Below, piece by piece: positions 323-20,055 of a stretch of DNA of 20,632 nt. The stretch spans positions 1 through 20,632 of the IMG/VR virus record IMGVR_UViG_3300009506_002841. One strand, given 5' to 3'. Position numbers and translations under genes: made by a program. Numbering within the stretch: the first letter of the stretch is position 1; each line of letters starts with the position of its first letter. This DNA comes from a virus. Under the pieces are notes generated by a model that was not told the DNA's origin, ran no database searches, and saw only the letters and a list, made by a program, of their open reading frames with translations.

Positions 323-757
323 TCCAATGTGGACGACATGCGTGTCGATTCCAAGGTCAGATATCGCAACCAACAGGTTGTTGGTCGCAGATATGTTATT
401 GTTTACCGTATAGCGTTTTTCGTAAGGCCCCTTCATCGAATACGGAGCTGCCCTCTGTTCTGCCAGATGCACAACCGCCATTGGGCGAAGGTGATCTATC
501 GTTTTTACAAGTGCTTCATAATCCCTTGAAATATCGAACTGCCTGATGCCAAGGGTATTGCCTGTAAGCTGACGCCATTTGAGCACCCTATAGTCAGCAG
601 GCTTGATTGGTGTTAGACTTTCGCATCCAAGTTTCACATCAATTACCCTGCGGCTCAGGTCATCAACAATCGTGACATCATATCCCAGACTGCTGAGTCT
701 TAACGATATAGGCCAGCCACAGAATCCGTCTCCTCCAAAAACTATTATTCTAGACAT
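1..757 (-). CDS. UDP-sulfoquinovose synthase (SQD1/SqdB) family NAD-dependent epimerase, partial, interrupted by an intein
   Basis: Runs off the left edge; 252 residues are visible. Host residues 1-145 match the SQD1/SqdB family, SDR-fold enzymes that make UDP-sulfoquinovose from UDP-glucose and sulfite: a Rossmann motif GGDGFCGW (8-15), an SRR..D segment (35-40), ESLTPI (46-51) and AEQRAAPYSM (99-108), all recalled hallmarks of this family. At residue 146 the host frame passes into an intein just after VVHIG, where relatives continue with TMGxYG. The missing +1 residue is therefore expected to be the catalytic Thr. ATG at 757 overlaps the end of the methyltransferase gene by 8 nt (ATGTCTAG), implying translational coupling at the end of a glycan gene run. 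A role in sulfolipid synthesis is unlikely for a phage; a modified sugar nucleotide for a surface glycan is more plausible. Another SDR epimerase of this subgroup is possible. Confidence 0.85.
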   Translation of the reverse strand, partial: MSRIIVFGGDGFCGWPISLRLSSLGYDVTIVDDLSRRVIDVKLGCESLTPIKPADYRVLKWRQLTGNTLGIRQFDISRDYEALVKTIDHLRPMAVVHLAEQRAAPYSMKGPYEKRYTVNNNISATNNLLVAISDLGIDTHVVHIGCYDDQTEIFTDSGWKLFKDLKDEDKVATRTEYERTLVFKKPKSIHEFNYNGQMYRVKNNRLDLSVTPDHRMFNVKRSNTDYKELRMEIAKDAYAKRRVYDIGFEWNG

Positions 758-1280
758 CAACCCACCACACAAAGTTCGGCAGTAAACTCACCGCCTGAAA
801 GAATTCGTCAACAGCCCTTTTGACCCCAAACCTTTTTATTTTATAGTCATGACCTGACAATATTCCCCCATGTTTTACTTTCGGCAGCCAGAGGATTATA
901 TCCTGTTTTACATATTTATAAGCATGGTTAGCATCGATAAATGCGAAATCCAGACTCCTGTCAGGGACATGTTTGACAGCTTCCTCGCTGTACATCCTTA
1001 AAGTCGTAATTTTATCGCTATACGCTGATACTGCCTCAAGATACATCTCATACACATCATTGTAATTAAGCTGGCTGTACTGGCTCTTTTCTCTTAATAT
1101 AGCTTTGAAATCGGGATACAGTTCCCAGCAATCAACGCAATAATATTGTCTGATCCCAGGCAAATTTTCTAGAAGATGCTTGGCCATGACACCTTTCCAT
1201 ACGCCAATTTCCGCTATAGTCTCGTGCTTTCTGTCTTTCAAGAAATCGACCAGCGTTCTGCGATGTTCAGATTCACCCAT
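750..1280 (-). CDS. Class I SAM-dependent methyltransferase
   Basis: A 176-residue Rossmann-type methyltransferase of the Methyltransf_24 kind. The SAM-binding motif I is AEIGVWKG (residues 23-30). An acidic residue ends strand 2 (CVD, about 50), FIDANHAY (114-121) forms the motif around strand 4, and SGHDY lies at 142-146. Family members often act in surface-glycan gene clusters, methylating sugars or glycan-linked substrates; the substrate cannot be read from sequence. ATG at 1280 overlaps the upstream epimerase stop by 8 nt and has no good Shine-Dalgarno site, so it probably depends on translational coupling. Its own stop overlaps the start of the SQD1-like gene. Confidence 0.85.
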   Translation of the reverse strand: MGESEHRRTLVDFLKDRKHETIAEIGVWKGVMAKHLLENLPGIRQYYCVDCWELYPDFKAILREKSQYSQLNYNDVYEMYLEAVSAYSDKITTLRMYSEEAVKHVPDRSLDFAFIDANHAYKYVKQDIILWLPKVKHGGILSGHDYKIKRFGVKRAVDEFFQAVSLLPNFVWWVDV

Positions 1281-2187
1281 TTAAAAACCAATCGACCGTC
1301 ATCCTAAGTCCGTCATCAAGTGTGACTTCAGGTCTCCATCCAAGTTCGTTATGTGCCTTTTTTATATATGCAAAATTTCTGCGGACATCTCCTACCCTCG
1401 GATCTGTCCTGCATATGGTAATGTTCTTGTATCCAACGTCAGAGAGCACCATTAAAAGTTTTCTGATAAGGTCAAAAATGCTGGTTTCGATATTTGTCGC
1501 AATCTGGTACACACCGCTTCCTCTTTCAGATGACCTGAATATGGCGTTGACAAGATCGTCAACATAAATAAAATCCCTCGTCTGGGTCCCGTCTCCATAT
1601 ATCTCGAAAACTTTACCGTCCAGTGCCTGTCTGATAAACTTCGATACAACGCTTCCCTTGTAAACGGATTCAGGACCATAAACATTGCTGAAACGCAGAG
1701 CGACCGTATCCACCCCGAATGTCAACTGATATGCCCGGCAGTACGCCTCCCCAGCGAGCTTGCTGGCACCGTACGGAGACACCGGATTCGGTGCTGTGTC
1801 TTCACGTATCGGAGGGTCACACTCACCGACAGCAGCACCGGACGACGCAAATACGAATTTTTTAATATGATTAACCTTTGCGGCCTCAAGCATGTTAAAC
1901 GTCCCGACTATGTTTTCCTCCATGTCTTTTCTTGGATTCATCACAGACGGCTCAACTCCCGTGTTTGCAGCAAGATGAACAACGATACCGATATCTTTAC
2001 AACATTTAAGACATACATCAGGATCAGTTATATCTCCCTCAACAAATTCCACTTCAGGAAACCTGCATGGAATGCCAAACGACATGTTGTCGAGTATCCT
2101 GACGCTTTTCCCGGATGCCACCAGCCTACTGACCAGGTTAGTCCCTATAAACCCGCATCCACCTGTTATGAGCCACTTTTTTTCCAT
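1273..2187 (-). CDS. NAD-dependent epimerase/dehydratase, UDP-glucose 4-epimerase-like (extended SDR)
   Basis: 304 residues, normal length for an extended short-chain dehydrogenase acting on nucleotide sugars. The NAD-binding motif is GGCGFIG (9-15), with VVHLAA at 69-74, SSGAAVG (115-121) at the catalytic Ser/Thr position, and the Tyr-Lys pair in YGASK (Y139, K143). The pattern fits GalE-like or UDP-glucuronate epimerase-like enzymes that act on UDP-sugars; the exact substrate is not readable. ATG at 2187 lies inside the end of the upstream glycosyltransferase gene (22-nt overlap). With the SQD1-like gene it probably supplies activated sugars to the neighbouring glycosyltransferases. Confidence 0.9.
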   Translation of the reverse strand: MEKKWLITGGCGFIGTNLVSRLVASGKSVRILDNMSFGIPCRFPEVEFVEGDITDPDVCLKCCKDIGIVVHLAANTGVEPSVMNPRKDMEENIVGTFNMLEAAKVNHIKKFVFASSGAAVGECDPPIREDTAPNPVSPYGASKLAGEAYCRAYQLTFGVDTVALRFSNVYGPESVYKGSVVSKFIRQALDGKVFEIYGDGTQTRDFIYVDDLVNAIFRSSERGSGVYQIATNIETSIFDLIRKLLMVLSDVGYKNITICRTDPRVGDVRRNFAYIKKAHNELGWRPEVTLDDGLRMTVDWFLNG

Positions 2188-2969
2188 TTATCAAGTTCTT
2201 TCCCAAACATGACAGCGCAGTCGTCTTTCCTCAAAAGATGCACATTCCCGTTCCATACATAATTACTCGGCTTATTCCCGCTTGGAAGACCAAATTCAAG
2301 GGGAAGGCAGTCGTATCTCATCTCTTTCTTGCATTCTTCAAACGCATGCCAGCAGCTTCCCTGTCCCCATCCAACAGGCCTTTCAATCGGAGGTACCCTG
2401 TCGATGTGATATCTCCACCTGTCAAAAAATCTTTTCAGGCTATCAGCAGGCCTTACAAGAACGCAGTCCGTCGTGATCCGCGCTTTAACAACCTTATGCC
2501 ACAACCTTAGCTTAAACCAGATATCCTTCTTGTCCAAAAGATCGTGGACGACGTTTATAAGAGGTTTTCTGAAGAGCGTGTCGATATCAAAATGAGCAAT
2601 ATACTCATATTTTTTTGACCAGAGTATTTTGTACACGCTTCTCCACCTGTCATCTCCGGATGTCATTAACTTCCAGACCCTGTTCGGCCCCTGGATGTAC
2701 ATCTTCTCGCATTCGTTTTTGTACGTCTCCATGACCTCAACCGGTAACCCTGCCCTTTTTGCCCAGTCCTGCATTGGAAGGGGCATGGAATTGACAGTTA
2801 TTTTACCGTCAGGATAGCATGAAATCAGATCATTAACCTCGTCCCTGGTCAGCCCCCTTGTGTCCATCCATACTTCAGGAAGATTGTCCCTATGGACATA
2901 GTGGAGACTCTTTAAAAACACTCTGGCATTTTCAAAAAACCCGTTCGTAAAATACGTGTGAATTAACAT
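2166..2969 (-). CDS. Glycosyltransferase, GT-A fold with DxD motif
   Basis: 267 residues from the preferred ATG at 2969, which has an AAAGGA Shine-Dalgarno just upstream and overlaps the previous stop as ATGTTAA. A longer form from ATG 2996 would add nine residues that do not resemble a domain start. The protein opens with a short beta-strand-like segment (MLIHTYFTNG). It carries YIAHFDIDTLF around residues 124-133, whose DID (128-130) is a typical metal and nucleotide-sugar binding DxD. The layout resembles GT8-like or other small viral GT-A enzymes, but I cannot name a family with certainty. It probably transfers a sugar made by the neighbouring epimerases. Confidence 0.75.
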   Translation of the reverse strand: MLIHTYFTNGFFENARVFLKSLHYVHRDNLPEVWMDTRGLTRDEVNDLISCYPDGKITVNSMPLPMQDWAKRAGLPVEVMETYKNECEKMYIQGPNRVWKLMTSGDDRWRSVYKILWSKKYEYIAHFDIDTLFRKPLINVVHDLLDKKDIWFKLRLWHKVVKARITTDCVLVRPADSLKRFFDRWRYHIDRVPPIERPVGWGQGSCWHAFEECKKEMRYDCLPLEFGLPSGNKPSNYVWNGNVHLLRKDDCAVMFGKELDKWKKSGS

Positions 2970-3535
2970 ATTCCTTTCTCGACTTCCGTAAGACATCCGC
3001 CTATTGCCGCTTTAAATACAATCCTGTCCCACCAGTACACCTTGGAAGGCATGATTTTTAAAAGTACGGCATTTAAAAAATAGAAATCACCGGCCCTTAC
3101 TTCCGACCATTTCTCTGAAAATTTCTGGAATAAGTTGTTACTGACGACAAAGTTTGGCGCTCCGATTGTGGTTCGAACCGGCAACACGTTTTTCCATACT
3201 TCATCAAATGGGTATAGAGGCTCGCCGATGTGCCCCTTACAGATGACAACATCGGGATTATTTGAATTGACGATTTCCTTTAGGTCTTTAATAAAATCAT
3301 TATAGACTAAAAAATCATCATCATCGAGAACATATACGAACTTTCCGTTTACTCTTTTGCGGTGCTCATGGATTTGAGTGTTTGCCCAGTGTAAACCCCT
3401 GCCCTCATCATCGTTGATGAAAAGCTGTTCGTAGTCCTTCTCTGTTTGATTTTGGACGGAAGCTATACAGCGCTCGAGCTGTTTCGGTCGCTTGTAGCAT
3501 CGCGTTATGATGCTTAAAAATGGAGTCATTTTCAT
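2963..3535 (-). CDS. Glycosyltransferase family 2
   Basis: 190 residues from ATG 3535 (ATG 3529 and TTG 3538 are alternatives). The GT2 pattern is clear: FLSIITRCYKRP (6-17), ASVQNQT (25-31), FINDDEG (39-45) binding the nucleotide, and VLDDDDF (69-75) containing the metal-binding DxD. It is short for GT2, having mainly the catalytic core and no acceptor extension. The gene starts 128 nt inside the end of the upstream glycosyltransferase, an unusually long overlap. A strong GGGAGGG site upstream is better spaced for an ATG at 3543, which is out of frame and stops after two codons. A past frameshift or base error at this junction is possible. Confidence 0.85.
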   Translation of the reverse strand: MKMTPFLSIITRCYKRPKQLERCIASVQNQTEKDYEQLFINDDEGRGLHWANTQIHEHRKRVNGKFVYVLDDDDFLVYNDFIKDLKEIVNSNNPDVVICKGHIGEPLYPFDEVWKNVLPVRTTIGAPNFVVSNNLFQKFSEKWSEVRAGDFYFLNAVLLKIMPSKVYWWDRIVFKAAIGGCLTEVEKGIC

Positions 3536-4643
3536 CAAACCATAATTTTAAGCCCTCCCGAAGCTCTTCCCTGAAACTGCTTGGAATATCGTCCATGGCC
3601 TTATAAAGCAGACTTAACGTATTTTTACTGTGTTCAAGATATGTCGTGGCAAGGTGAAACAGGGCGAGTGCGTAAGCCTTGCTGTTTTTGTTAAAGACAA
3701 ACTGAGACGCACGCTCCGCCATATTTTTATCAAAATCATGGTAAGCATTGACAAATCCCCTTGCTCCGGCACCGACAAGATTCTGATTTTTTGTCAACAT
3801 GCCATATCTTAACAGCGCCATATTGATATCAAGATCGTTGGGAAGTTCCTTCAGCGCGATTTCCAGCCATTTCCATGCGTTTTCTGCGTCATGTTTATTC
3901 AAGTATTGAGCAATAATAGACCAGTACACAGACCTGTGAAATCTTCCGTCTTTAATTTTTTTTCTTTTTTTAGCGTACTTTACTGCCCAATCAAGACTTT
4001 TTTCATGGTTGTCTGCAAAACTTGCATAAGCCTGAGACAGGTAAAAAATTGAATCGTAATCGTGAGGATCTTTTCGGACTGCCTTTTCTAATAGACTGAT
4101 CGTACGTTTGGCTTTAATTTCCTTTTCGTATGGATCAAGGTCATATCCGTAGTGGTTGAATTTCACAAATGTGCACAGACCAGTATCTCCTTTATACACC
4201 GGTTCATTGTGAATTGCCCTTCTGTATTTAACTTTTCCGTTTCTGAAAAACCGGACATGCTGTGTGGTTGCCGTCTCTTTGCCACCGACAATGTCGGTGC
4301 AGACAAGTGCAACAGCATTTATTTCCTTAATTGTCATCTCAAGAAACTTGAGAAACATTGAAGGCGTCGAACCTTTCAGGTAAACAAATTCTTCATCTGC
4401 ATCAAGCTGATATACCCAGTCGCCTGTCGCATATGAAAAGGACTGATTTCTGTGCTTTGCGAAGTTACCTTCCCATGGATGGTAATAAACTTTTGCACCG
4501 AACTCTTTTGCAATTTTCACTGTCTGATCGACAGACCCGGTATCAACGACGATCAGCTCAGCATTTAAACCTCTTACGGATTCAAGACACCTTCTGAGAT
4601 TTTTCTGCTCATTTTTTACGATCATCGCTATGGATAAGCGCAT
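3408..4643 (-). CDS. Glycosyltransferase family 2 with TPR-like helical region
   Basis: 411 residues. The N-terminal GT2 domain starts at residue 1 with SIAMIVKNEQ (4-13), then VVDTGSVD (32-39), WEGNFAKHRN (57-66) and YQLDADEEF (78-86), where DAD (81-83) is the metal-binding motif. From about residue 185 there are repeated helix pairs resembling tetratricopeptide repeats (for example DSIFYLSQAYAS and NAWKWLEIALKELPND). This is the known GT2-plus-TPR architecture found in glycan and glycopeptide clusters. ATG 4643 follows AAAGGA at good spacing and shares one base with the previous stop (TGATG). The last roughly 43 residues are read in another frame of the next gene and may not belong to the original protein. 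Confidence 0.87.
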   Translation of the reverse strand: MRLSIAMIVKNEQKNLRRCLESVRGLNAELIVVDTGSVDQTVKIAKEFGAKVYYHPWEGNFAKHRNQSFSYATGDWVYQLDADEEFVYLKGSTPSMFLKFLEMTIKEINAVALVCTDIVGGKETATTQHVRFFRNGKVKYRRAIHNEPVYKGDTGLCTFVKFNHYGYDLDPYEKEIKAKRTISLLEKAVRKDPHDYDSIFYLSQAYASFADNHEKSLDWAVKYAKKRKKIKDGRFHRSVYWSIIAQYLNKHDAENAWKWLEIALKELPNDLDINMALLRYGMLTKNQNLVGAGARGFVNAYHDFDKNMAERASQFVFNKNSKAYALALFHLATTYLEHSKNTLSLLYKAMDDIPSSFREELREGLKLWFDENDSIFKHHNAMLQATETARALYSFRPKSNREGLRTAFHQR

Positions 4644-7118: not shown

Positions 7119-7607
7119 ATGAAACTATTACCTGTAAATAATGCAAATGTATCATTAAGAAAGCATCAAAGACAAACACAAGTAGCTAAAATGCTTTCGA
7201 AAAATCCGTACATGAGGCCTGATGAAATCGCAGAAAAATTAAACTTTTCAGTAGGCACAATCAGGGGGGATATTGCTGAAATTAACAGGGCCCTGCATAA
7301 TGAGACCCTTGTTTCAGCCTTTGTCCACAGAAATAGAATCCTTGAAGAAATAACTGCTAAGAAAAAATTGTGTTCCGAGAAATTGGCACAATGCCGTGGT
7401 GCAACCGCCGGCACAAGATGGATCGAAGAGTGGACCAAGCTTGTTGAAAAAGAGTGCAAAATATTAGGTATTTACTCGCCGGACAGAAAAATTATAGCCC
7501 ACATCGACACCGCTAAGTTTACAAAAGAAGAAAAGGACGCTGCAATAAAGGCAGCGCTGCTGGTAAGCGGCAAAGAGGACACAATAGATGTCGAGCCCTC
7601 AGGTTGA
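7119..7607 (+). CDS. HTH DNA-binding protein, probable terminase small subunit
   Basis: 162 residues. A helix-turn-helix lies at about 33-55 (PDEIAEKLNFSVGTIRGDI), resembling the DeoR/HTH_11 type. A central helical region (about 60-115), which could form an oligomerisation bundle, is followed by a C-terminal tail with KFTKEEKDAAIKAALL. A small HTH protein immediately before TerL, overlapping it by 20 nt, is the standard position of TerS, which recognises packaging DNA and recruits TerL. The family itself was not recognised, so TerS is inferred from context and architecture. It is the first gene after the rightward promoter. No clear Shine-Dalgarno precedes ATG 7119, only an A-rich leader. Confidence 0.7.
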   Translation: MKLLPVNNANVSLRKHQRQTQVAKMLSKNPYMRPDEIAEKLNFSVGTIRGDIAEINRALHNETLVSAFVHRNRILEEITAKKKLCSEKLAQCRGATAGTRWIEEWTKLVEKECKILGIYSPDRKIIAHIDTAKFTKEEKDAAIKAALLVSGKEDTIDVEPSG

Positions 7608-10002
7608 TATAAATAATCCCACCCAGGTAGCATTTACTTTCTTAACCTCTTATATCAAGCACTTATACCCAAATTACCTGTTTGCGAAATACCACGAGGA
7701 AATGGCAATAAAACTGATGGACGTCGAAAAAGGACTTATTGACCGTCTGATTATCGCCATGCCTCCGAGGCACGGTAAATTGCTTAGTGATTCTACTGTC
7801 TTACCTACTCCAAAAGGGTGGAAAAAACACGGAGATTTAAAAATTGGTGACTATGTATTTGGACTTGATGGAAAACCAACAATGATTAATTGGATTTCAC
7901 CAAAAGCTTTAGCAACACTTGAATTTGAATTCACAAATGGAGAAAAAATAAGATGTCATGAAAATCATGAATGGATGGTATTTAATAGAAGTAGAAATAG
8001 GTGGGAAACTAATGAATCAAAACATTTCACTCAAGGACGTAAACTTTTAAGTAATAACAGATGTATATATCAGCTTCCATTAACAGTTCCATTAAAATTC
8101 AGTGAAAAAAACCTTCCAATGCATCCATATGCACTAGGGATGTGGCTTGGAGATGGAAGCTCAGCTTGTTCAAGAATTTGTGCATCATATGAAGATGAGA
8201 TCGCTTTACGAGCTGTATCCGCTTGTGGATATCAAAATGGCGCAAGACATATCCATAACACAACTGGTGTTATTTCACAGAATTATATTAATGGAATGAC
8301 AGAAGAGTTAAGATATCTTAATCTTATAAACAACAAACATATTCCAGATATCTATAAATTCTCATCTGTTGAACAAAGACTTGAACTTCTTGCAGGCTTA
8401 ATAGACAGCGATGGATCTGTTGAACCTAAAACAAGCCGTGTAAGAATTACAACATCAGACCCAGTATTAGCCTGTGATATCAAAGAAATTGTGCGGTCAT
8501 TTGGATGGCATGTGTGCCACTACAAACAAAAACCATGCATTTCGACATCCGGAATAATAGGATCAAAAGAAGTAAGCTATCTCGGATTTAACCCAACAAC
8601 TGATATTCCAACAAGAGTCCCAAGAAAAGAAATTCAAAGATTCACAAAAAAAAGGCGAATTGGATTAAAATCAGTACGTCAATGCGACCCAGAACCAGGT
8701 CATTCAATCAGCGTTGAAAGCCCAGATGGAATGTATCTTGTCGGAAAAACCATTATCCCGACACATAATACAATGATGGTATCTGAATATTTTCCTGCAT
8801 GGTATCTCGGCAGAAATCCTGAACACCAGGTCATCGCCACGACATATTCCTATGAAAGAGCCACAGACGTTGGCCGAAAAGTCAGAAATCAGATGCTCAT
8901 GGACGCTTATCAGGAAATATTTCCTGACTTTACACTGTCTTCAGACAGCAAGAGCGCCAACAGATTATCTTCTGAACAAGGCGGAAACTATTTCAGTGTT
9001 GGAGTCGGTGGAGCAATCGCGGGCCGTGGTGCCGATTTGTTTTTAATCGACGACCCAATAAAGGGACGTGAAGAAGCTGATAGCGAAGTGTCAAGACGCA
9101 AACTGATTGACTGGTATCGAAGCGTGGCTTATACCAGGCTTTTGCCCGGTGGGAGGATTGTCGTCATATCAACCCGTTGGCACTACGACGACTTAACTGG
9201 ATACCTTCTTGAAGAAGACGTCGACAACTGGGAAGTTTTAAAATTCCCTGCAATCGCCGAAGAAGATGAGCCAGTAATAGGCAGAAAACGAGGAGAAGCC
9301 CTATGGCCGGCTAAGTATCCAATAGAAAGACTTCAAGTCATTCGTGATGTTGTTGGATCAAGAGAATGGAACTCACTTTACCAGCAGGACCCGATAGACG
9401 AAGAAGGCGGGGTTGTAAAAATATCGTGGTTTAAAAGATATGACGAGCATGAAATGCTTAGATTTGAAATGAATCCAGAGACTCCTCCATTTAATATAAA
9501 GTACCTGGCTATAAGTTGGGACACGGCGTTCAAAGAATCCGAGATCAACACAACACCTTCATGCGCCACCGTCTGGGGAGCCTCGGACATAGGATTTTAT
9601 CTGATTGACGTGTTTACCCAGAGAATGAACTTCCCTAAATTAAAGCGTAAGTCCATCTCACTATATAATTATTATTCAAATTTCCTGAACACCGTCGTCC
9701 TTATTGAAGATAAGGCCTCCGGGCAGAGCCTTATCCAGGTACTTCAGGAAGAAACAAATATCCCCATAATAAAAATGATTCCTGATAAAGGAAAAGTTAT
9801 AAGGATGGAGTCAGTTTCAAATGTTATCGAAGGCGGGAGGGTACACATACCGAATAGCGCGTCATGGCTTTCTGAATTCGAACGCCAGATCAGCCAGTTT
9901 CCACTCGGACGGTTTAAGGATATCGTCGACTCGACTTCTCAATTTTTGAAATGGGCTTCAAGGCCGAAACCGAAAAGAAAAATAATTCAGTTCTGGAAAT
10001 AG
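7588..10002 (+). CDS. terL: Terminase large subunit containing an intein
   Basis: An 804-residue precursor; removal of the 330-residue intein leaves 474, a normal TerL length. TerL is the ATP-driven DNA-packaging motor and headful or cos nuclease, acting at the procapsid portal. The N-terminal ATPase has Walker A PPRHGK (59-64), completed by Thr395 after splicing. Sequence then continues FPAWYLGRNPEHQV. Walker B is LFLIDDP with D488 and D489. The C-terminal RNase H-like nuclease begins at LAISWDTAF, where D645 is the first expected metal ligand. ATG 7588 lies 20 nt inside the upstream gene and follows AGAGGA. Without splicing the ATP-binding loop is split, so packaging depends on intein removal. 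Confidence 0.95.
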   Translation: MSSPQVDINNPTQVAFTFLTSYIKHLYPNYLFAKYHEEMAIKLMDVEKGLIDRLIIAMPPRHGKLLSDSTVLPTPKGWKKHGDLKIGDYVFGLDGKPTMINWISPKALATLEFEFTNGEKIRCHENHEWMVFNRSRNRWETNESKHFTQGRKLLSNNRCIYQLPLTVPLKFSEKNLPMHPYALGMWLGDGSSACSRICASYEDEIALRAVSACGYQNGARHIHNTTGVISQNYINGMTEELRYLNLINNKHIPDIYKFSSVEQRLELLAGLIDSDGSVEPKTSRVRITTSDPVLACDIKEIVRSFGWHVCHYKQKPCISTSGIIGSKEVSYLGFNPTTDIPTRVPRKEIQRFTKKRRIGLKSVRQCDPEPGHSISVESPDGMYLVGKTIIPTHNTMMVSEYFPAWYLGRNPEHQVIATTYSYERATDVGRKVRNQMLMDAYQEIFPDFTLSSDSKSANRLSSEQGGNYFSVGVGGAIAGRGADLFLIDDPIKGREEADSEVSRRKLIDWYRSVAYTRLLPGGRIVVISTRWHYDDLTGYLLEEDVDNWEVLKFPAIAEEDEPVIGRKRGEALWPAKYPIERLQVIRDVVGSREWNSLYQQDPIDEEGGVVKISWFKRYDEHEMLRFEMNPETPPFNIKYLAISWDTAFKESEINTTPSCATVWGASDIGFYLIDVFTQRMNFPKLKRKSISLYNYYSNFLNTVVLIEDKASGQSLIQVLQEETNIPIIKMIPDKGKVIRMESVSNVIEGGRVHIPNSASWLSEFERQISQFPLGRFKDIVDSTSQFLKWASRPKPKRKIIQFWK
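7780..8769 (+). other. LAGLIDADG intein in TerL Walker A motif, class 3-like with Leu1 and Ser in place of Cys
   Basis: Intein residues are precursor 65-394 (330 residues), inserted between Lys64 and Thr395 of the Walker A loop. The first residue is Leu, not Cys, Ser or Thr, so a standard class 1 start is impossible. Block A continues LPTPKGW...GDLKIGDYVFG. Block B has HENHEW, with His127 and Trp129 at the class 3 tryptophan position. Block F has HSISVESPDGMY, in which Ser373 sits where class 3 inteins use Cys. Block G ends IIPTHN with Thr392, His393 and Asn394, then +1 Thr. A homing endonuclease domain has two dodecapeptide motifs, LGMWLGDGS (183-191) and LLAGLIDSDG (267-276). The segment is A+T-rich compared with its flanks. 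Confidence 0.92.
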
Positions 10003-10012
10003 GAGACACGTC

Positions 10013-11476
10013 ATGAAAAAAGAAGATCTCGAATTCAAACATCCGCTTTACGAATCAAACATAGAAGAATGGAACCGGTACGGAATGACGTATGACGGAG
10101 GAGCACCATTTATAAAGTACGCACTTTACAGGTACAGTAACCTTGAAAGCGAGACAAACTTTCAAGAACGGGTAAAAAACGGCTATATCTTTAACTATGC
10201 CCAGTCTATCGTAGACCTCTATAATTTCTACCTTACCGAAAAACCAGCTATAATGAGTCTCGGCCCTCTTGAAGATAATCCCCAGTTTAATCTATTTTTA
10301 AAAGACGCTGATCTTAACAATACAGATTTTCATGACTTTATGAAAGAATCCCAAAAGATTAGTTCTGTCCACGGGTCTCTCGGAATCCTCGTCAACAAAC
10401 CGGATGGATTTGCAAATGATGTGTACCCGTATGTCACACGCTATTCATTGCCGAACATACTGGACTGGACTATAGAAAGAGATGAAAGGACACACAGATC
10501 AGTCCTTACCTATTTAAAACTGCTTGAAGAAGACGACACATACTTGTTGCTGTGGCCTAACAGGTGGGAAAAATGGGAAATTATTAAGAAAACAAAACAA
10601 CCTAAAATGCTCGGAGCAGGGGAAATCCCGATTGAAGAAATACCGTTCATCTGGATGCCGAACCTGAAACGGATCGAATACTGGTACCTCGGGGTAAGCG
10701 ACATCGTTGACATCAGCAGAATCGTGGAAAGCATCGTGCGCAATCTGTCCCATGGAGAAGAAATCATAAAACTGGCGGGGTTCCCCATGCTTCGACAACC
10801 GATCGATAAGTCATTTGGAATAGAAGAGAAAGACGATGATGATAAGGTCCGGATAGGCGTAAGGGCTGTTCAGCCGTATGACGCATCACTCGGGGAGGCA
10901 GGGAAGCCTGACTGGATGCCGACAGAAATCTATGAACCAGTTATGGCCGTCCTGAACTGGATAGACAGAAAAGCAGAAGAGTCATACAGAATCGCACATC
11001 TGTCAGGGGTGCACGGACAGCGTACGTCCGGCGAACCCGCCAGTGGACTTGCCTTAAGGTACAGCTTCCAGCAATTGTATTCTGTACTTGAAAAAAAGTC
11101 TAAAAACATGACTGAAGCCCAGCTTCAGATTATCAGGCTTTGGATGAAATGGCAGAGAATGGCGGATAAGTTCAACAGGATCAGTATCACAAGGCCAAAA
11201 GAATTTTCCATAGACGACCTTGCAGTTGAACTTGACAATGCTTTTACAGCAATGAGGAATATGGCCAGTAAGACATTCAGGACCAAGCTCCAGATGAAAG
11301 TTACTGACCATATTCTGCCCGACCTTACGGAGGAGGAGCGCATTGCCATTGAAAAAGAAACAGTTGCAAATACACCGGTAAGGATTGAACTCTTTAAAGA
11401 CACATTCAGGAATCAGACAGGCGGAGGAGATAAGATCAGGCCTGCTGATCAAACAAGCACAAGAGGAAGACGATGA
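10013..11476 (+). CDS. Phage portal protein
   Basis: 487 residues, the usual portal length, directly after TerL with a 10-nt gap and an AGGAGA site seven bases before ATG 10013. The portal is the dodecameric ring at the unique capsid vertex through which DNA is packaged and to which TerL docks. Visible features are a mixed alpha/beta N-terminal region with aromatic-rich helices (YIFNYAQSIVDLYNFYL), a central segment with EEIPFIWMPNLKRIEYWY, and the long helix region ASGLALRYSFQQLYSVLEKKSKNM (about 343-366) typical of portal stem or wing helices. A helical C-terminal tail follows. Position and architecture make the call strong. The C-terminal end overlaps the next gene as ATGA. Confidence 0.87.
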   Translation: MKKEDLEFKHPLYESNIEEWNRYGMTYDGGAPFIKYALYRYSNLESETNFQERVKNGYIFNYAQSIVDLYNFYLTEKPAIMSLGPLEDNPQFNLFLKDADLNNTDFHDFMKESQKISSVHGSLGILVNKPDGFANDVYPYVTRYSLPNILDWTIERDERTHRSVLTYLKLLEEDDTYLLLWPNRWEKWEIIKKTKQPKMLGAGEIPIEEIPFIWMPNLKRIEYWYLGVSDIVDISRIVESIVRNLSHGEEIIKLAGFPMLRQPIDKSFGIEEKDDDDKVRIGVRAVQPYDASLGEAGKPDWMPTEIYEPVMAVLNWIDRKAEESYRIAHLSGVHGQRTSGEPASGLALRYSFQQLYSVLEKKSKNMTEAQLQIIRLWMKWQRMADKFNRISITRPKEFSIDDLAVELDNAFTAMRNMASKTFRTKLQMKVTDHILPDLTEEERIAIEKETVANTPVRIELFKDTFRNQTGGGDKIRPADQTSTRGRR

Positions 11477-14277: not shown

Positions 14278-14537
14278 TTGTCCATTTTCGCCTTTTCTAT
14301 GTCACACTCAAGTTCAAGTTTGCAAGATTTAACAAAAGCAGGAACTAGGAAATAATCGTCACATGAATCACAGTAAAATGACAATTTTTCCCATCCTTTT
14401 ACTCGTACATAAGAAAGATAATTATCACCATCGAATTCTGTTTCTGTTTGGCATTGTGGACACCTGACTTTTAAATCAAGATCAACATAAAGCCTTTTAA
14501 TGCCTTCAATTTCTATGTTCCCATGTACTGTTATCAT
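14274..14537 (-). CDS. Small zinc-ribbon protein with two CxxC pairs
   Basis: 87 residues. C26/C29 (CPQC) and C56/C59 (CDSC) form a clear zinc-ribbon pattern around a beta-hairpin-like stretch, preceded by a strand-rich N-terminus and followed by a charged helical tail. GGAGG lies close before ATG 14537, which overlaps the stop of the VWA gene (ATGA). Being coupled directly to the metallopeptidase-VWA gene suggests a shared process. The partner is not known. Confidence 0.72.
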   Translation of the reverse strand: MITVHGNIEIEGIKRLYVDLDLKVRCPQCQTETEFDGDNYLSYVRVKGWEKLSFYCDSCDDYFLVPAFVKSCKLELECDIEKAKMDK

Positions 14538-15895
14538 TTGACCTCCAAATCAATAACTTCGCCCCATGGCGGAGTTGAGTACCTGAGCCTGCCTCCCGGC
14601 ATTCTCGGTGTTGTGTTCATCCAGAAGACCTGAGCATTTGGACGGTTTGGTGGATATGCCCAATTCGTGACATCAAGATCGGTAAAATGAAATATGACAA
14701 CAGGTTCATCTTCAAGTTCAGCGGCTTTTATATATGCATCTTTATAATCGGTTCCGCCTGACTGAGTTTTGTCAAATTTAATTGGCAAGTCTTCCGATGA
14801 ATAAAACTCAGTCAAATAGGCGTACGTATTATGAAATATGACCGCAATTTCAAATCCCTCAAATTCTTCAAGTATTCCTGACAGCTCAGACGCATATGTC
14901 TCAAGTTCCCCTTGGGTAATTGACCCGCTGGTGTCAACGATAACGGCGATGGTGTTCAACTCTTTCACATATAAAGACGGCAGATAAACGTCATCCATAT
15001 ATTTTCTATTTGGCCGCCCCATGCAATAATCATCACGCGTAATTTCTTCGAGGACATCCGTAATTAGATCTTTGTATGTCCGCTGAGGTTCCGTATGGGC
15101 TTCGATGATTTCCTGGATAAATTCAGGCATGTCACCGATTGTCGACTCGAGCTCTTTCTGTAAAATCCTGCCAGCATTTGCTATTTTCTGGTCAAAGTCC
15201 TTTTCAAACTGTTTAACCTCTTCCGGAGTCGCCATCTCGCCTGGATTTTCTTCACTCTTGAGGGGCATGATCCCCCCGAACCCGCCGGTCTCCTTTTCGA
15301 ACTCTTCCTGCACATCAGGAGATGTATCTCCATCCTTTGACTGTTTTTTGGATTTTATTTTCTTTTTCTTGCTTTTAATGTTACCAGAACTTGTTCCATC
15401 ACCCTCACCCCCAGCTCCTTCGCCATCTTCATCCGGTGGAGGTGGCTGCTTTTTTTTCTGTTCCTGGAGTTTCCGGTATATCCTTATGGCGCTCATTCCT
15501 TCAAATTCTTTTTCAAACTTATGAACGAATCCATCTGGAGTTACCGGCAATTTTCTGCCTTTTGTAATCAGGCGGTTATCAATCGGGATATCACAGGCAC
15601 GCTGGGCAAGCCCCATGTCGAAATCAGGTTCTTCCATTAAATCAAGCATTAACTGGCCGTGTTTCAGCGCAACATGATAAACCTCATGTTCGAACAGCGC
15701 CATGACTTCTTCAATAGTCAGGTCCTTGATCCAGTCAGGATTGTAGATCATGCACTTTCCGTCGGTTGCCGCAGTAGCGCAACCTGGAGACTCAATTAAA
15801 TCAAGACTTAAGGCAACCGAACCAAAAAATGGTTCATCACCTTCACCGAGAATCAGCATTGTCCGTGCGCGTCTAAGCTTCTTTTCCGGAACCAT
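14534..15895 (-). CDS. HExxH metallopeptidase-like and VWA domain protein (DUF2201 type)
   Basis: 453 residues in three parts. The N-terminal domain has HEVYHVALKH (70-79), an HExxH zinc-peptidase motif. A low-complexity linker (about 143-195), rich in Lys, Pro, Gly, Asp and Glu, follows. The C-terminal VWA domain has an intact metal-ion-dependent adhesion site: DTSGS (321-325), T382 in SGGTD and D406 in FTDLD. This matches the DUF2201 architecture, which usually partners a MoxR AAA+ ATPase that remodels or inserts metal into a target bound through the VWA domain. A MoxR gene lies upstream in the same operon. ATG 15895 lies 23 nt inside the preceding gene with AGG a few bases upstream. Whether it cuts protein is untested; related proteins may use HExxH structurally. 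Confidence 0.85.
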   Translation of the reverse strand: MVPEKKLRRARTMLILGEGDEPFFGSVALSLDLIESPGCATAATDGKCMIYNPDWIKDLTIEEVMALFEHEVYHVALKHGQLMLDLMEEPDFDMGLAQRACDIPIDNRLITKGRKLPVTPDGFVHKFEKEFEGMSAIRIYRKLQEQKKKQPPPPDEDGEGAGGEGDGTSSGNIKSKKKKIKSKKQSKDGDTSPDVQEEFEKETGGFGGIMPLKSEENPGEMATPEEVKQFEKDFDQKIANAGRILQKELESTIGDMPEFIQEIIEAHTEPQRTYKDLITDVLEEITRDDYCMGRPNRKYMDDVYLPSLYVKELNTIAVIVDTSGSITQGELETYASELSGILEEFEGFEIAVIFHNTYAYLTEFYSSEDLPIKFDKTQSGGTDYKDAYIKAAELEDEPVVIFHFTDLDVTNWAYPPNRPNAQVFWMNTTPRMPGGRLRYSTPPWGEVIDLEVK

Positions 15896-16106
15896 TGACC
15901 TGCCTCATTATAATTTCTTCTATGACTTTTCTTAACGCCGTCTGAAACGGATATATATCTTCAGGTTCTACTCCATCAAAATGTTTAGGGCTCAAATATG
16001 CGATATCTTTTGCAAGCACAGAATGAAGACTTGGATCTGCATAAGAATCCAGATGGTCTGTGAGCACAATTTTGATGGCCTCTAATTCTTTATCATTAAA
16101 CTTCAT
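15873..16106 (-). CDS. Hypothetical small helical protein
   Basis: 77 residues, mostly helical and acidic, not recognised. It begins with a predicted amphipathic helix (FNDKELEAIKIVLTDHLDSY) and ends with a second (FQTALRKVIEEIIMRQ). It has no cysteine or membrane motif. GGGGAAG precedes ATG 16106, which overlaps the DUF3150-like stop (ATGA), and its end overlaps the VWA gene by 23 nt. Being wedged between those two genes it may be an adaptor for them (inference). Confidence 0.65.
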   Translation of the reverse strand: MKFNDKELEAIKIVLTDHLDSYADPSLHSVLAKDIAYLSPKHFDGVEPEDIYPFQTALRKVIEEIIMRQVNGSGKEA

Positions 16107-16954
16107 TTCTTCCCCATTAAAACTTCCATCTTGTTTTGTATGTCCCTTGCCTCTTGAGCAGTTTTGTCCCTTACCTTTTTGTCCTTTTTAAGCTGACCCG
16201 GAGTAAAGATGATTAACTTCTGTTTTACATCAGTACACAGCTCAGTCAATTTCGGATCATTAGCGACATTGAGATCTGGCAGGATATCGACCAGGTCTTC
16301 AAGATTAGAGACCAGGGTTTTAAAAATCTTCGGGTCCTTGTCGCTCAATCGTTCTGCCATTCGCTCAACCAGTTCATACATCCTGTCCCAGAGATTCTGG
16401 GATATCTGTTTGAGATTTTTGTCCTGTTCTTCGATTAGATCCTGCTTAATTTCGTCCAGCGTCGCCTGTTCAACTTTTAAAATGAAATGGTCGTCCTGTG
16501 GAATCGGCTTTCTATGCATCTCGAACGTATAGAATTTTTCGACTTCAGATACGTCAGGATATTCATTTGCCTTGAACGCAGGGCCTAATCTTGACTTTGC
16601 GGCCTCTATGACGGATGTCCATTTAACTTTTAAATCGCTTACGTTTGACTCAAATTCCATCTTGAGGCTTTTGATTCGCTGATTGTATTTCGGAATTAAA
16701 GTTGACGGAAGCAACCGGTACATGTCATGTCCCCACGGGACGGTCATTTGCCGGTGATACGACCTTGCCTGGTTGGCTATTCGTGATATATCCTTTACAT
16801 CAACACGGTCGATTTTAAATTTCCGGTAATAACCCGCACGGTTGTCTGTAATATTGTACGCCTGGTGGGCTGCGGTTGTGACTTCCTGGCTTTTTGTAGA
16901 AAGCCCGAGCTGCGTTATCCTCAGACTTACCAGCATACCCCTTTCTGCTAACAT
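16103..16954 (-). CDS. DUF3150-like protein
   Basis: 283 residues. The N-terminal half has MLVSLRITQLGLSTKSQEVT (7-26), ARSYHRQMTVPWGHDMYRLL (63-82) and a following helix with IPKYNQRIKSLKMEF. The Y-x-x-x-T-x-PW-x-x-x-x-x-R-LLP pattern is what I recall for DUF3150, a family often next to MoxR-like ATPase and VWA genes in phages and mobile elements. The C-terminal half is helical and charged (about 165-283). No catalytic motif is seen. ATG 16954 overlaps the previous stop as ATGTTAG; ATG 16936 is an alternative. It is likely a partner of the ATPase and VWA proteins. Confidence 0.7.
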   Translation of the reverse strand: MLAERGMLVSLRITQLGLSTKSQEVTTAAHQAYNITDNRAGYYRKFKIDRVDVKDISRIANQARSYHRQMTVPWGHDMYRLLPSTLIPKYNQRIKSLKMEFESNVSDLKVKWTSVIEAAKSRLGPAFKANEYPDVSEVEKFYTFEMHRKPIPQDDHFILKVEQATLDEIKQDLIEEQDKNLKQISQNLWDRMYELVERMAERLSDKDPKIFKTLVSNLEDLVDILPDLNVANDPKLTELCTDVKQKLIIFTPGQLKKDKKVRDKTAQEARDIQNKMEVLMGKK

Positions 16955-17256
16955 AACCCCAATCCCCTTTTAGCAATCTTCTTTGCCATTTCTAAAATTG
17001 TCCGTTTGAACTGTTCATCCATTCCATATTCAAACACCTCGCTTGAATTAAGAATATATTTAGATTCAGATATAAGTAAAATTTTAATGCAATTAAGCGT
17101 TTTTTCCCCCCAGTGTCCTTCAAAAGCATCCTGTCTGATCCGCAGACCGTGATATTTTGTCTTATATGCGAATACCATCTTGTATGAATAGTATATGACC
17201 ATATCGCCGAATTCCACCTGGTGAAATCCGGCGCTTCGTTCATAAAACCTGATCAT
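16948..17256 (-). CDS. Hypothetical protein
   Basis: 102 residues, not recognised. The N-terminal half is beta-rich and aromatic (FGDMVIYYSYKMVFAYKT), followed by a Gly/Trp turn (FEGHWGEKTLNCIK) and a helical C-terminus with basic residues. It has no membrane segment. The pattern of a strand with SYxT/K followed by a WG turn is common among small phage proteins of unknown role. It overlaps both neighbours by a few bases, fixing it as part of the coupled operon. Confidence 0.65.
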   Translation of the reverse strand: MIRFYERSAGFHQVEFGDMVIYYSYKMVFAYKTKYHGLRIRQDAFEGHWGEKTLNCIKILLISESKYILNSSEVFEYGMDEQFKRTILEMAKKIAKRGLGLC

Positions 17257-17633
17257 AATTTTTTGGCCATGGCCTCCAGAATGTCTTTAAGTTTTAAAGT
17301 AATCACAATGTCTATATAAGAGCTGTTCATATGCGACTTCACAGAATGGACTTCAACTGATGAGAGCTGCTCTATCTGTATCTTAAGTGGCTTTTGGACT
17401 GCTGCTCTTGTCGTATATTCATCCCTTTTGGCAATACGATATACCATACGCTTGCCTTTGTAATCTCCAACTGACTTTAAATAGCCTTTTGCCTTTGACC
17501 TTAACACAAAGTTGTCAATTTGCTTGTTTGTAAAGCCCTCATCATGCATAAAGTCTTGAATATATACTTTTGTAACTTCATCCAAAGGAATTTTAACTAG
17601 ACGGTTAATAAATCTTTCTATTCCTGATTTCAT
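17253..17633 (-). CDS. Hypothetical protein, possible winged-helix N-terminus
   Basis: 126 residues. Residues about 14-60 (PLDEVTKVYIQDFMHDEGFT, then NKQIDNFVLRSKAKGYL and a short hairpin KGKRMVYRI) have a helix-helix-helix-wing layout like a winged helix, which would bind DNA or RNA. The C-terminal 40 residues alternate strand and helix. AAAGGT lies eight bases before ATG 17633, which shares one base with the upstream stop. No family is recognised; the winged-helix reading is a visual inference. Confidence 0.65.
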   Translation of the reverse strand: MKSGIERFINRLVKIPLDEVTKVYIQDFMHDEGFTNKQIDNFVLRSKAKGYLKSVGDYKGKRMVYRIAKRDEYTTRAAVQKPLKIQIEQLSSVEVHSVKSHMNSSYIDIVITLKLKDILEAMAKKL

Positions 17634-18286
17634 TATTTCTTACCTTTCTTTTTTGTTTTTATCTGTTTTTTCGGTTTCTTTTTTGTAAGCCCGCAAGCAT
17701 GCACCATTGACGTAACTTCGTCAGCCGTACAATGAGCCAGGTTCTCGTAAAACATATCCACATATTTCAACTGGTCTGACAACATGATCGTCGGATACAT
17801 TCTGGAAGTTTTTTCCTTGATAACACGGTACAGATAAAGACCGGCACCATTACCGTCAGGATTGTGAATAGTGAACTCAATCTCGACAGCCTGGACGGGG
17901 TTATAAACATTTATCTTATGAATTTCCCACACATCCAGCTCTGTTTTGACGCAGAGTTCCTTCATATGCCTGTTGAAATCCGTGCAGTCATCAAATCTTC
18001 CCTTTAAACTGGCTGACTTAGTCTGCCTGGTTCTATAATCTCCATACAAGTCTCCTCCACTTTCAAGAGACATCGGAGATTTAAGTGTAAATCTCTGACA
18101 TACATCCGAAATTTCCTTGTAAGACCTGAATGACACACTTACCAGCCTTACTCCCCTTTTTGAAAACGATCCCTTCTTCCACGGCTTGGACTTCTGCCAT
18201 ATACGCAACTCTTCCGGTGCATGAAGGCTGTACCACTCATCACCTGACTTTTTAAACTTTAGTAATTCCTTAAGTTTCACAGTCAT
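17633..18286 (-). CDS. Hypothetical protein with Lys-rich tail
   Basis: 217 residues, not recognised. The core (about 40-190) mixes strands and helices, with VRLVSVSFRSYKEISDVCQR and VEIEFTIHNPDGNGAGLYLY as the most ordered-looking parts. The last 17 residues are almost all Lys (KKKPKKQIKTKKKGKK), suggesting binding to nucleic acid or an acidic partner. ATG 18286 has an excellent AAAGGAG site and lies 17 nt inside the previous gene. It has no Walker, zinc or membrane motif. Confidence 0.68.
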   Translation of the reverse strand: MTVKLKELLKFKKSGDEWYSLHAPEELRIWQKSKPWKKGSFSKRGVRLVSVSFRSYKEISDVCQRFTLKSPMSLESGGDLYGDYRTRQTKSASLKGRFDDCTDFNRHMKELCVKTELDVWEIHKINVYNPVQAVEIEFTIHNPDGNGAGLYLYRVIKEKTSRMYPTIMLSDQLKYVDMFYENLAHCTADEVTSMVHACGLTKKKPKKQIKTKKKGKK

Positions 18287-18671
18287 TTTCCATCTCCTTT
18301 GTTAAAAATGTAAAACTGCATCTCGGACATGTTGTTATTCTTCCTGTCTCAAACGTGACGTCTTTGTCATTCATTTTTTCAGTTGCCGCTGTTTTCCTGC
18401 AGGAAGTACATAACTGGGACGAGTATGTTCTTTTATTTAATGCAATTTCAGCATAACTTTTATTGCATAGCCTGCACATGACTCTTTCATCTAAACGCTT
18501 TCTTGTTTTCCTGTTGTTTTTATAAGAGCCGTCAAGCCAGGAACGGAGCACAGCCTCTGGGATATCACTTTCCATCGAAAGTTTTTCTATGGCTTTACTG
18601 TACGGCCATTTTTTCCACAGCAAGACTTCCATCTGCATTTTGAAAGCGTTTACGCACTGATCTACCCACAC
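18270..18671 (-). CDS. Zinc-finger protein with three CxxC pairs
   Basis: 133 residues. An N-terminal helical part includes a possible HTH at about 24-50 (YSKAIEKLSMESDIPEAVLR). Then come CRLC (66-69), CTSC (88-91) and CPRC (115-118), with a further Cys131 near the end. The first two pairs make one zinc site; the third, with residues near the C-terminus, may make another. The start is GTG 18671: AAAGGA lies seven bases upstream, within the end of the ATPase gene, and there is no better ATG. It is directly coupled to the MoxR gene (1-nt gap) and may bind nucleic acid or act as an adaptor. Confidence 0.7.
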   Translation of the reverse strand: MWVDQCVNAFKMQMEVLLWKKWPYSKAIEKLSMESDIPEAVLRSWLDGSYKNNRKTRKRLDERVMCRLCNKSYAEIALNKRTYSSQLCTSCRKTAATEKMNDKDVTFETGRITTCPRCSFTFLTKEMENDCET

Positions 18672-18672
18672 C

Positions 18673-20055
18673 CTAATTTCCTTTTATTTTGGTAAATACC
18701 AGCACATCCTGGTACTTATTCTGGAAATCTATAAATCCCTTGGTATTGCACACGTCTTCATTATGAGATACAGCATCTCTGACAAGCATCATCAGGAACT
18801 CCTCATTCAGCCTTTCGCCGTACTTAAGTATATTATCAAAGTTCTTTTTAGTCGCCTGGGCTGCAATACATTCACAGGTCGCATAAAGGATGGAATCGTT
18901 GGTAGGGACTTCAGCAGTGTCCGGATTCTTGATAATGTTGTCGATATTCGGAATACGCCTGAAGTGTTCCAGAAATCCTATAAAGTCGATGGCAAACGCC
19001 TTCCCGGCAGTGCCTTCATAAACTTCAAATTCAATAGACTTCGGGACGCCTGCCTTCAGCATATCCCCGCACTTAGCAATAGTCCTCGGAGTCGCGGAAT
19101 TGGTAAAATCGGTGGTCGGCTTATAACCGTTTGTGAGGAAATTCTTTCTGAACCGGTTGAATGCAATATTTTCCGCTGGCTGACCGCTCTCGATGGCCCA
19201 TTTGCACCAGTCATCGACATCTGTATCCAGATGCACAATAGTCGCCCTGTTTTTTAGCGGTTCTATCATTCCGGTAACAGCGGCCTTATCTTCTTTCCGG
19301 TTTGTAGCGACGATAAAACTGACATGCTTGCTTATTTTCGCACCGTTGAGTTTCCCGCCCCAGAGCAGCTGCATGGCTGCAGCCTGGGTCGCCTTTGGAG
19401 CCTGGCCCATGTCGTCCATGAACAGTGTCGTTGGAACATTAGCATTGATCAGCTCCAATAACATGCCGAACGGAACAAAATCCGCAGTAACATTGCCGTC
19501 TTTATCGACCTGCTTGAACGGAAACCCCTTGTAATTTGTCGGGTCTTCAATAACCGGATGCGTGATAATAATTCTTCTGCCGAGGTGTTCGGCAGCCTGT
19601 ATGGTGATCTCGGTCTTCCCGCCTCCAGGAGGACCTACGACCATCAAGGTAAAGTTGTTACTCATACACATACACGCTAACTCAAAATACTGACTTGGTT
19701 TCATGCCTCTTGGTTTCTCCTTTCGTGGTGGTGGCACTGTTTCCCATGAAAAATTTGGGCTTACACTAGGTGACACACTGGGACTTACGACGGACATCCA
19801 TGTACCAGGATATGCAACTGATGCGGCCAATGAAAACTGATCTGGATTTAGTGCCGTTAATGGTGATGTCGTAAAATCAGGGAAGATCCATTGTTTAAAT
19901 ACGTCATCGAATAAACTCGGGTTGTTAGAAAATATGCTCTGAATTTGACCGCAAGTTTTACATCGAATTCTAGCAAGATCAATTTGAATATTATTCGTAA
20001 TATCAAATGACCCGCAGCTAGGGCACCGTAATGTTTTTCCGTTTAATAGCGTCAT
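18673..20055 (-). CDS. MoxR-type AAA+ ATPase with N-terminal zinc ribbon
   Basis: 460 residues. A zinc ribbon at the N-terminus has CPSC (11-14) and CKTC (32-35). A Ser/Pro/Val-rich spacer follows, with a short repeat VSPSVSPSVSP (about 90-100). The AAA+ core has Walker A GPPGGGKT (141-148), Walker B TLFMDD (210-215), sensor 1 FIVATN (247-252) and a likely arginine finger near R270. The C-terminal helical domain (about 300-460) is typical of MoxR proteins. MoxR ATPases work as hexamers with VWA proteins to remodel or load targets. The DUF2201-type VWA gene downstream in this operon is the expected partner. ATG 20055 lies 38 nt inside the previous gene; its Shine-Dalgarno is weak (CGGA). Confidence 0.88.
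   Translation of the reverse strand: MTLLNGKTLRCPSCGSFDITNNIQIDLARIRCKTCGQIQSIFSNNPSLFDDVFKQWIFPDFTTSPLTALNPDQFSLAASVAYPGTWMSVVSPSVSPSVSPNFSWETVPPPRKEKPRGMKPSQYFELACMCMSNNFTLMVVGPPGGGKTEITIQAAEHLGRRIIITHPVIEDPTNYKGFPFKQVDKDGNVTADFVPFGMLLELINANVPTTLFMDDMGQAPKATQAAAMQLLWGGKLNGAKISKHVSFIVATNRKEDKAAVTGMIEPLKNRATIVHLDTDVDDWCKWAIESGQPAENIAFNRFRKNFLTNGYKPTTDFTNSATPRTIAKCGDMLKAGVPKSIEFEVYEGTAGKAFAIDFIGFLEHFRRIPNIDNIIKNPDTAEVPTNDSILYATCECIAAQATKKNFDNILKYGERLNEEFLMMLVRDAVSHNEDVCNTKGFIDFQNKYQDVLVFTKIKGN

Follow-up and report, generated by a model that had tools for sequence, protein, structure and literature searches.

Class 3 inteins are defined in part by a Cys at block F position 4 (F:4), which belongs to their Trp-Cys-Thr (WCT) triad. 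In MchDnaB1 and MsmDnaBi1 the reported class 3 nucleophile is Cys124 and Cys118, respectively (PMC7664689; PMC6195587), and for the MchDnaB1 active site a Cys124-His65-Thr143 triad like that of Ser/Cys proteases has been proposed (PMC7664689). In the class 3 inteins that have been tested the F:4 Cys is essential, with Ala in its place blocking splicing, and Ser is frequently a failed substitute for a catalytic Cys in inteins, as several tested cases show (PMC5222942). Inserts of this type have been thought always to be cysteine-initiated. Here we describe a phage TerL intein that, together with five relatives, carries Ser at this position.

Gene context and boundaries of the intein

The window, by which we mean the whole 20,632-nucleotide stretch of viral DNA analysed, is an incomplete phage record (20.6 kb), IMG/VR records being fragments. 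On its plus strand it contains an uninterrupted TerL ORF of 804 aa (7588–10002; Terminase_6C, E = 2e-12, and Terminase_6N). Directly upstream lies the gene for an HTH protein, the probable small terminase (7119–7607, plus strand), and contig L291 has a terminase small subunit in the same place; the portal protein gene follows TerL (10013–11476, plus strand; phrog_145, E = 2e-40).

Two minus-strand regions of the window were also noted. Positions 750–4643 hold a cluster of glycosyltransferase-like, nucleotide-sugar epimerase and methyltransferase-like genes that adjoins the head genes and possibly serves surface sugar or DNA modification. Positions 14534–20055 encode a DUF2201 metallopeptidase/VWA-like protein and an AAA ATPase (phrog_1297), resembling a MoxR-VWA pair within a phage.

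The TerL ORF is made up of a 64 aa N-extein (7588–7779, plus strand) that ends in the Walker-A sequence ...MPPRHGK, a class 3-derived intein of 330 aa (990 bases; 7780–8769, plus strand) with a LAGLIDADG endonuclease inside, and a C-extein with the remaining ATPase and the RNase H-like nuclease (8770–10002, plus strand). The insertion follows Lys64 of TerL and separates the Lys of Walker A from its Thr (PPRHGK^...^T). Intein-free TerL relatives read straight over this site, MW202426 as PPRHGK|SNLTSEIFPAWYLG, uninterrupted across the insertion point, and the homologue L290 as PPRHGK|S, so the insert is exactly 7780–8769. Near the TerL C-terminus (9910–9945 region) the sequence of the nuclease motif is FKDIVDS, compared with EDDDVDS or HDDMVDA in relatives, with Lys in place of one acidic residue.

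The intein begins with Leu at A:1 (TTG; 7780–7782, plus strand) and so has no N-terminal nucleophile. Block B, GEKIRCHENHEW (7939–7974, plus strand), supplies Cys59 (B:6), His60 (B:7), His63 (B:10) and Trp65 (B:12). Both motifs expected of a LAGLIDADG homing endonuclease are present and intact, HPYALGMWLGDG at 8122–8157 and LELLAGLIDSDG at 8380–8415 (both plus strand), the second in a PF14528 match (E = 2e-8). Toward the C-terminus, all on the plus strand, come Cys302 (TerL Cys366; 8683–8685), seven residues ahead of F:4; Ser309 (TerL Ser373, codon TCA; 8704–8706), which occupies F:4 and is the putative initiating nucleophile; block G Thr328-His329-Asn330 (8761–8769); and Thr+1 (8770–8772), at once the C-extein nucleophile and the Walker-A Thr.

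An insert that encodes a homing endonuclease might also be a self-splicing intron, its 990 bases excised as RNA. This is exceedingly improbable here, given that Rfam returned no intron match to the insert, that the TerL frame is open from end to end, and that all HINT blocks, Asn330 and the +1 nucleophile are kept.

Ser at the position of the class 3 nucleophile

A phmmer search of the PDB sequences returned the class 3 inteins MchDnaB1 (6rix) and MsmDnaBi1 (6bs8) as first matches. The block F–G stretch aligns without gaps (window intein 295–330 with Mch 110–145) and places Ser309 on MchDnaB1 Cys124 and MsmDnaBi1 Cys118, and Cys302 on MchDnaB1 Val117. The N-terminal stretch is in register with 6rix from residue 5, and this, with the empty site above, identifies Leu as residue 1. 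The alignment bears out the first-pass annotation, which had placed Leu (TerL 65, TTG) at intein position 1, Trp129 in block B (intein Trp65, two residues past His63), Ser373 at the block F position, Thr392-His393-Asn394 at the terminus (intein 328–330) and Cys366 (intein Cys302) off the block F position: neither a Cys at F:4 nor a nucleophile at position 1 appears.

A splice site shifted to Ser3 was considered and rejected; Leu-Leu would then remain in Walker A after splicing, the related contig L092 has Ala at position 3, and the 6rix register sets residue 1. Nor is Ser309 a plausible sequencing error: no single-base change connects the Cys codons (TGY) with the TCA of the window, and other contigs independently have Ser.

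The AF2 model of the window intein (pLDDT 96.8, from a 54-sequence alignment) has an intact HINT fold. With Foldseek it matches 6riy and 6bs8 over the splicing domain (TMt 0.86–0.87) and PI-SceI along its entire length.

Census of relatives

Relatives were gathered from IMG/VR and GTDB genomes, supplemented by a Ser-specific DNA pattern scan. The block F column, to which the first-pass annotation had drawn attention for TerL inteins, was read in 176 full-length inteins: 170 have Cys at F:4 and 6 have Ser, a Ser frequency that is a lower bound, the pattern scans having covered spacings other than the short E-G-G one. No other residue, such as Ala, Gly or Asp, occurs at F:4 in any of the 176, and this restriction to Cys or Ser fits the expectation that a nucleophile is required there. 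The Ser forms, all on separate contigs, are those of the window, L001 and L092 (codon TCA in each), L002 (TCT), L283 (TCN) and L004 (AGC); the L092 intein is identical in L093 and L094. L283 came from the DNA pattern scan, two further such scans gave no additional Ser forms, and the L283 junction, searched as a peptide among named phages, had no match. All 13 inteins sampled from isolate phages, nearly all in TerL, have Cys at F:4 (hosts Bacteroides, Porphyromonas, Gordonia, Mycobacterium, Salmonella, Klebsiella, Aeromonas, Pseudomonas and Parabacteroides), and a mycobacteriophage survey likewise reported Cys (PMC5050341).

Some of these TerL genes carry a second intein. In L002 a class 1-like intein (2567–3556; Cys1, Asp F:4, ...HN^TRWH) lies about 135 codons past the Ser-F:4 intein, both within one 1155 aa ORF. 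The L120 and L197 TerL genes combine a Walker-A class 3 Cys intein with a Cys1-type intein just ahead of the Walker-B region (...GAHC / ...HNC.IDDPI).

Since Ser often cannot stand in for a catalytic Cys, compensating changes are expected in the Ser forms. A column scan gave only weak candidates apart from Thr+1, which is present in all six Ser forms vs 28 of the 170 Cys forms (3/3 of the origins described below; chance about 0.005). Thr+1 also occurs in close Cys relatives of L283 and L004, and its association with Ser F:4 may be background in part. Position 1 differs as well: a nucleophile is found there in 0/170 Cys forms vs 2/6 Ser forms, these two from different lineages (chance about 0.001). 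They are Ser1 in L002 (AGT; L002:1157) and in L004 (AGC; L004:1363), gains that may reflect weak nucleophilicity of Ser F:4; residue 1 is Leu in the window and L001, Gln in L092 and Ala in L283.

The constant Thr+1, together with a position 1 that lacks a nucleophile, would also suit a class 2-like pathway with direct attack of Thr+1 on the N-terminal junction and an assisting role alone for Ser309, like that of Asp F:4 elsewhere; F:4 is indeed an assisting residue in class 1 and class 2 inteins (PMC4031507). We regard this as unlikely. Direct attack by threonine would be chemically demanding, an assisting F:4 residue should vary, yet only Cys or Ser is seen there, and the known class 2 inteins are KlbA orthologues with Ala1, Asp F:4, Ser G:6 and Cys+1 (PMC4031507), whereas the window has Leu1, Ser F:4, His G:6 and Thr+1 and shares none of these features.

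Independent origins and persistence of the Ser form

In an IQ-TREE analysis of 63 inteins with F:4 masked, three Cys/Ser changes are needed and well-supported branches force all three; every one of 200 bootstrap trees requires more than one change (5–95% range 3–3), and two of the three origins were apparent in an earlier tree as well. The six Ser inteins are derived from Cys forms in three independent origins. One is the clade of the window, L001, L002 and L092 (support 100/100; 57–72% identity to the window); L004 falls inside a Cys clade whose members mostly have Ala1, and L283 pairs with L099 and L101, both Cys. The window intein nests inside the class 3 WCT TerL inteins and retains the Trp and Thr of their triad, in agreement with its earlier description as a class 3-like TerL intein.

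These origins bear on whether another cysteine initiates splicing in place of Ser309. Cys302 is retained throughout the window clade and lies in the AF2 model on the strand leading to F:4 (E295–308), probably across the hairpin from it, and Cys59 (B:6) is present in 6/6 Ser forms. With Cys59, a thiol is thus available nearby in every Ser form, which is a point against initiation by Ser309. But L004 and L283 have Val and Ile, respectively, in place of Cys302, so that two of the three origins are without it and it was rejected as a general nucleophile, and in the alignment it pairs with Val117 of MchDnaB1 and not with the nucleophile. Cys59 is found in 98/170 Cys-F:4 forms as well, therefore it is no compensation, and it adjoins B:7, a residue with a side chain expected to face the opposite way. 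Initiation by either cysteine is very unlikely, and a minor part for another nucleophile (Thr+1, Cys59 or Cys302) is possible beside the oxyester route from Ser309 that we favour.

The window clade has kept Ser through TCA/TCT codon changes and near synonymous saturation. Between the window and L001, pN and pS are 0.18 and 0.63 for the intein and 0.29 and 0.87 for the C-extein; dS is at or beyond saturation and the pN/pS ratios are indicative only, but as judged from these codon comparisons purifying selection on both intein and TerL is clear. The same two inteins are 72% identical, more than their TerL proteins (60%), and the window intein is far richer in AT than the gene around it (GC3 0.21 vs 0.44 in the C-extein), which points to recent acquisition. 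The higher intein identity and low GC3 fit recent movement between TerL genes. Each of three 64–91 kb contigs with a Gln1/Ser-F:4 intein was found to have a single TerL.

It could be argued that the intein no longer splices, or cleaves only, and that TerL has been lost or is made elsewhere: Ser failed for the catalytic Cys in several tested inteins (PMC5222942), and the window is incomplete enough, at 20.6 kb, for a second TerL to be possible. This seems quite unlikely, because Ser has appeared repeatedly and persisted for long in TerL genes under purifying selection, with three origins, a lasting clade and intact LAGLIDADG motifs and catalytic blocks, to which the signs of recent mobility may be added. 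The conserved TerL exteins and the single TerL of the 64–91 kb relatives indicate that splicing most probably takes place; with Walker A of the sole packaging motor interrupted, an intein that failed to splice could hardly persist.

Proposed splicing pathway and its implications

The window intein is probably active and mobile, a class 3 derivative whose block F Cys has been replaced by Ser, and the comparisons above suggest that class 3 splicing can proceed without a block F cysteine. In the pathway we propose, Ser309 Oγ would form a Ser-His-Thr triad with His63 and Thr328 and attack the bond between Lys and Leu1, and the product would be a block F branched intermediate with an oxyester linkage. 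Oxygen-to-oxygen transesterification would then transfer the N-extein to Thr+1, Asn330 would cyclise, and an O-to-N shift would restore the Walker-A GKT, every covalent intermediate being an oxyester.

More tentatively, loss of the block F thiol may be a recurrent evolutionary step in phage TerL inteins that works together with Thr+1. Its products would be the first natural class 3 inteins to rely on oxygen alone, and a way back to class 1 would lie open. The suggestion of such a route comes from Ser1, which arose twice independently and in Ser-F:4 lineages only; in sequence, L002 and L004 look like the onset of a return to class 1 chemistry. It does not apply to the window and L001 (Leu1), L092 (Gln1) or L283 (Ala1). 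If true, class 3 and class 1 would be linked by living intermediates and not separated by one ancient split. The repeated natural Ser replacements allow a direct test of the need for a thiol, of the Ser-His-Thr triad and of the change of class. For protein ligation under oxidising conditions, a thiol-free intein whose two nucleophiles both lie in the C-terminal part would also be well suited.

Comparison with known inteins

Judged by the features of the three classes, the window intein has the Leu1, Trp B:12, Thr G:5 (Thr328) and usual Ser/Thr+1 (here Thr) of class 3, and its common descent with WCT inteins is indicated by the nesting of Ser forms within Cys forms and by the structural match to solved class 3 inteins. 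It is not filed as canonical class 3 because the defining Cys F:4 is replaced by Ser309; from its sequence it is best described as a class 3-derived Trp-Ser-Thr variant, whose mechanism is most probably that of class 3 with oxygen substituted for sulphur. The Cys, Ser or Thr that class 1 has at position 1 is lacking in all Ser forms except L002 and L004. In the literature covered, which did not include the founding class 3 papers, we found no report of all-oxyester splicing outside class 1 (Ser1) inteins, and a passing mention of Ser F:4 in those papers or in supplementary tables is possible.

The window intein shares the HINT fold, the absence of a position-1 nucleophile, Trp B:12, His B:10, Thr-His-Asn and Ser/Thr+1 with the class 3 inteins MsmDnaBi1 (6bs8), MchDnaB1 (6rix), phage Bethlehem DnaB and the TerL WCT inteins, but these have a Cys F:4 nucleophile where it has Ser. 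Those in TerL of the Bacteroidales phages Porphyromonas phage005b and Bacteroides BK649P1 occupy the same Walker-A site, are about 40% identical and contain LAGLIDADG, but combine Cys F:4 with Ser+1, in contrast to Ser F:4 with Thr+1 in the window. The cysteine-independent class 1 inteins PolB16 OarG and Aes123 PolB1 resemble it in having oxygen-only nucleophiles and are expected to pass through oxyester intermediates (PMC10189870; PMC11923092). Their splicing relies on Ser1 and on the motif NX His, which is preceded by Arg/Lys, lies before block B and marks Ser1 oxyester, cysteine-independent inteins (PMC10189870), whereas in the window intein residue 1 is Leu and the corresponding region (residues 33–59) lacks His, an absence that counts against the proposed oxyester pathway. 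Finally, the split class 3 intein AceL NrdHF is a natural departure from WCT that still splices by the class 3 route (PMC7891396); its triad differs at the Trp (MCT) and retains the Cys, whereas in the window it is the Cys that is changed.
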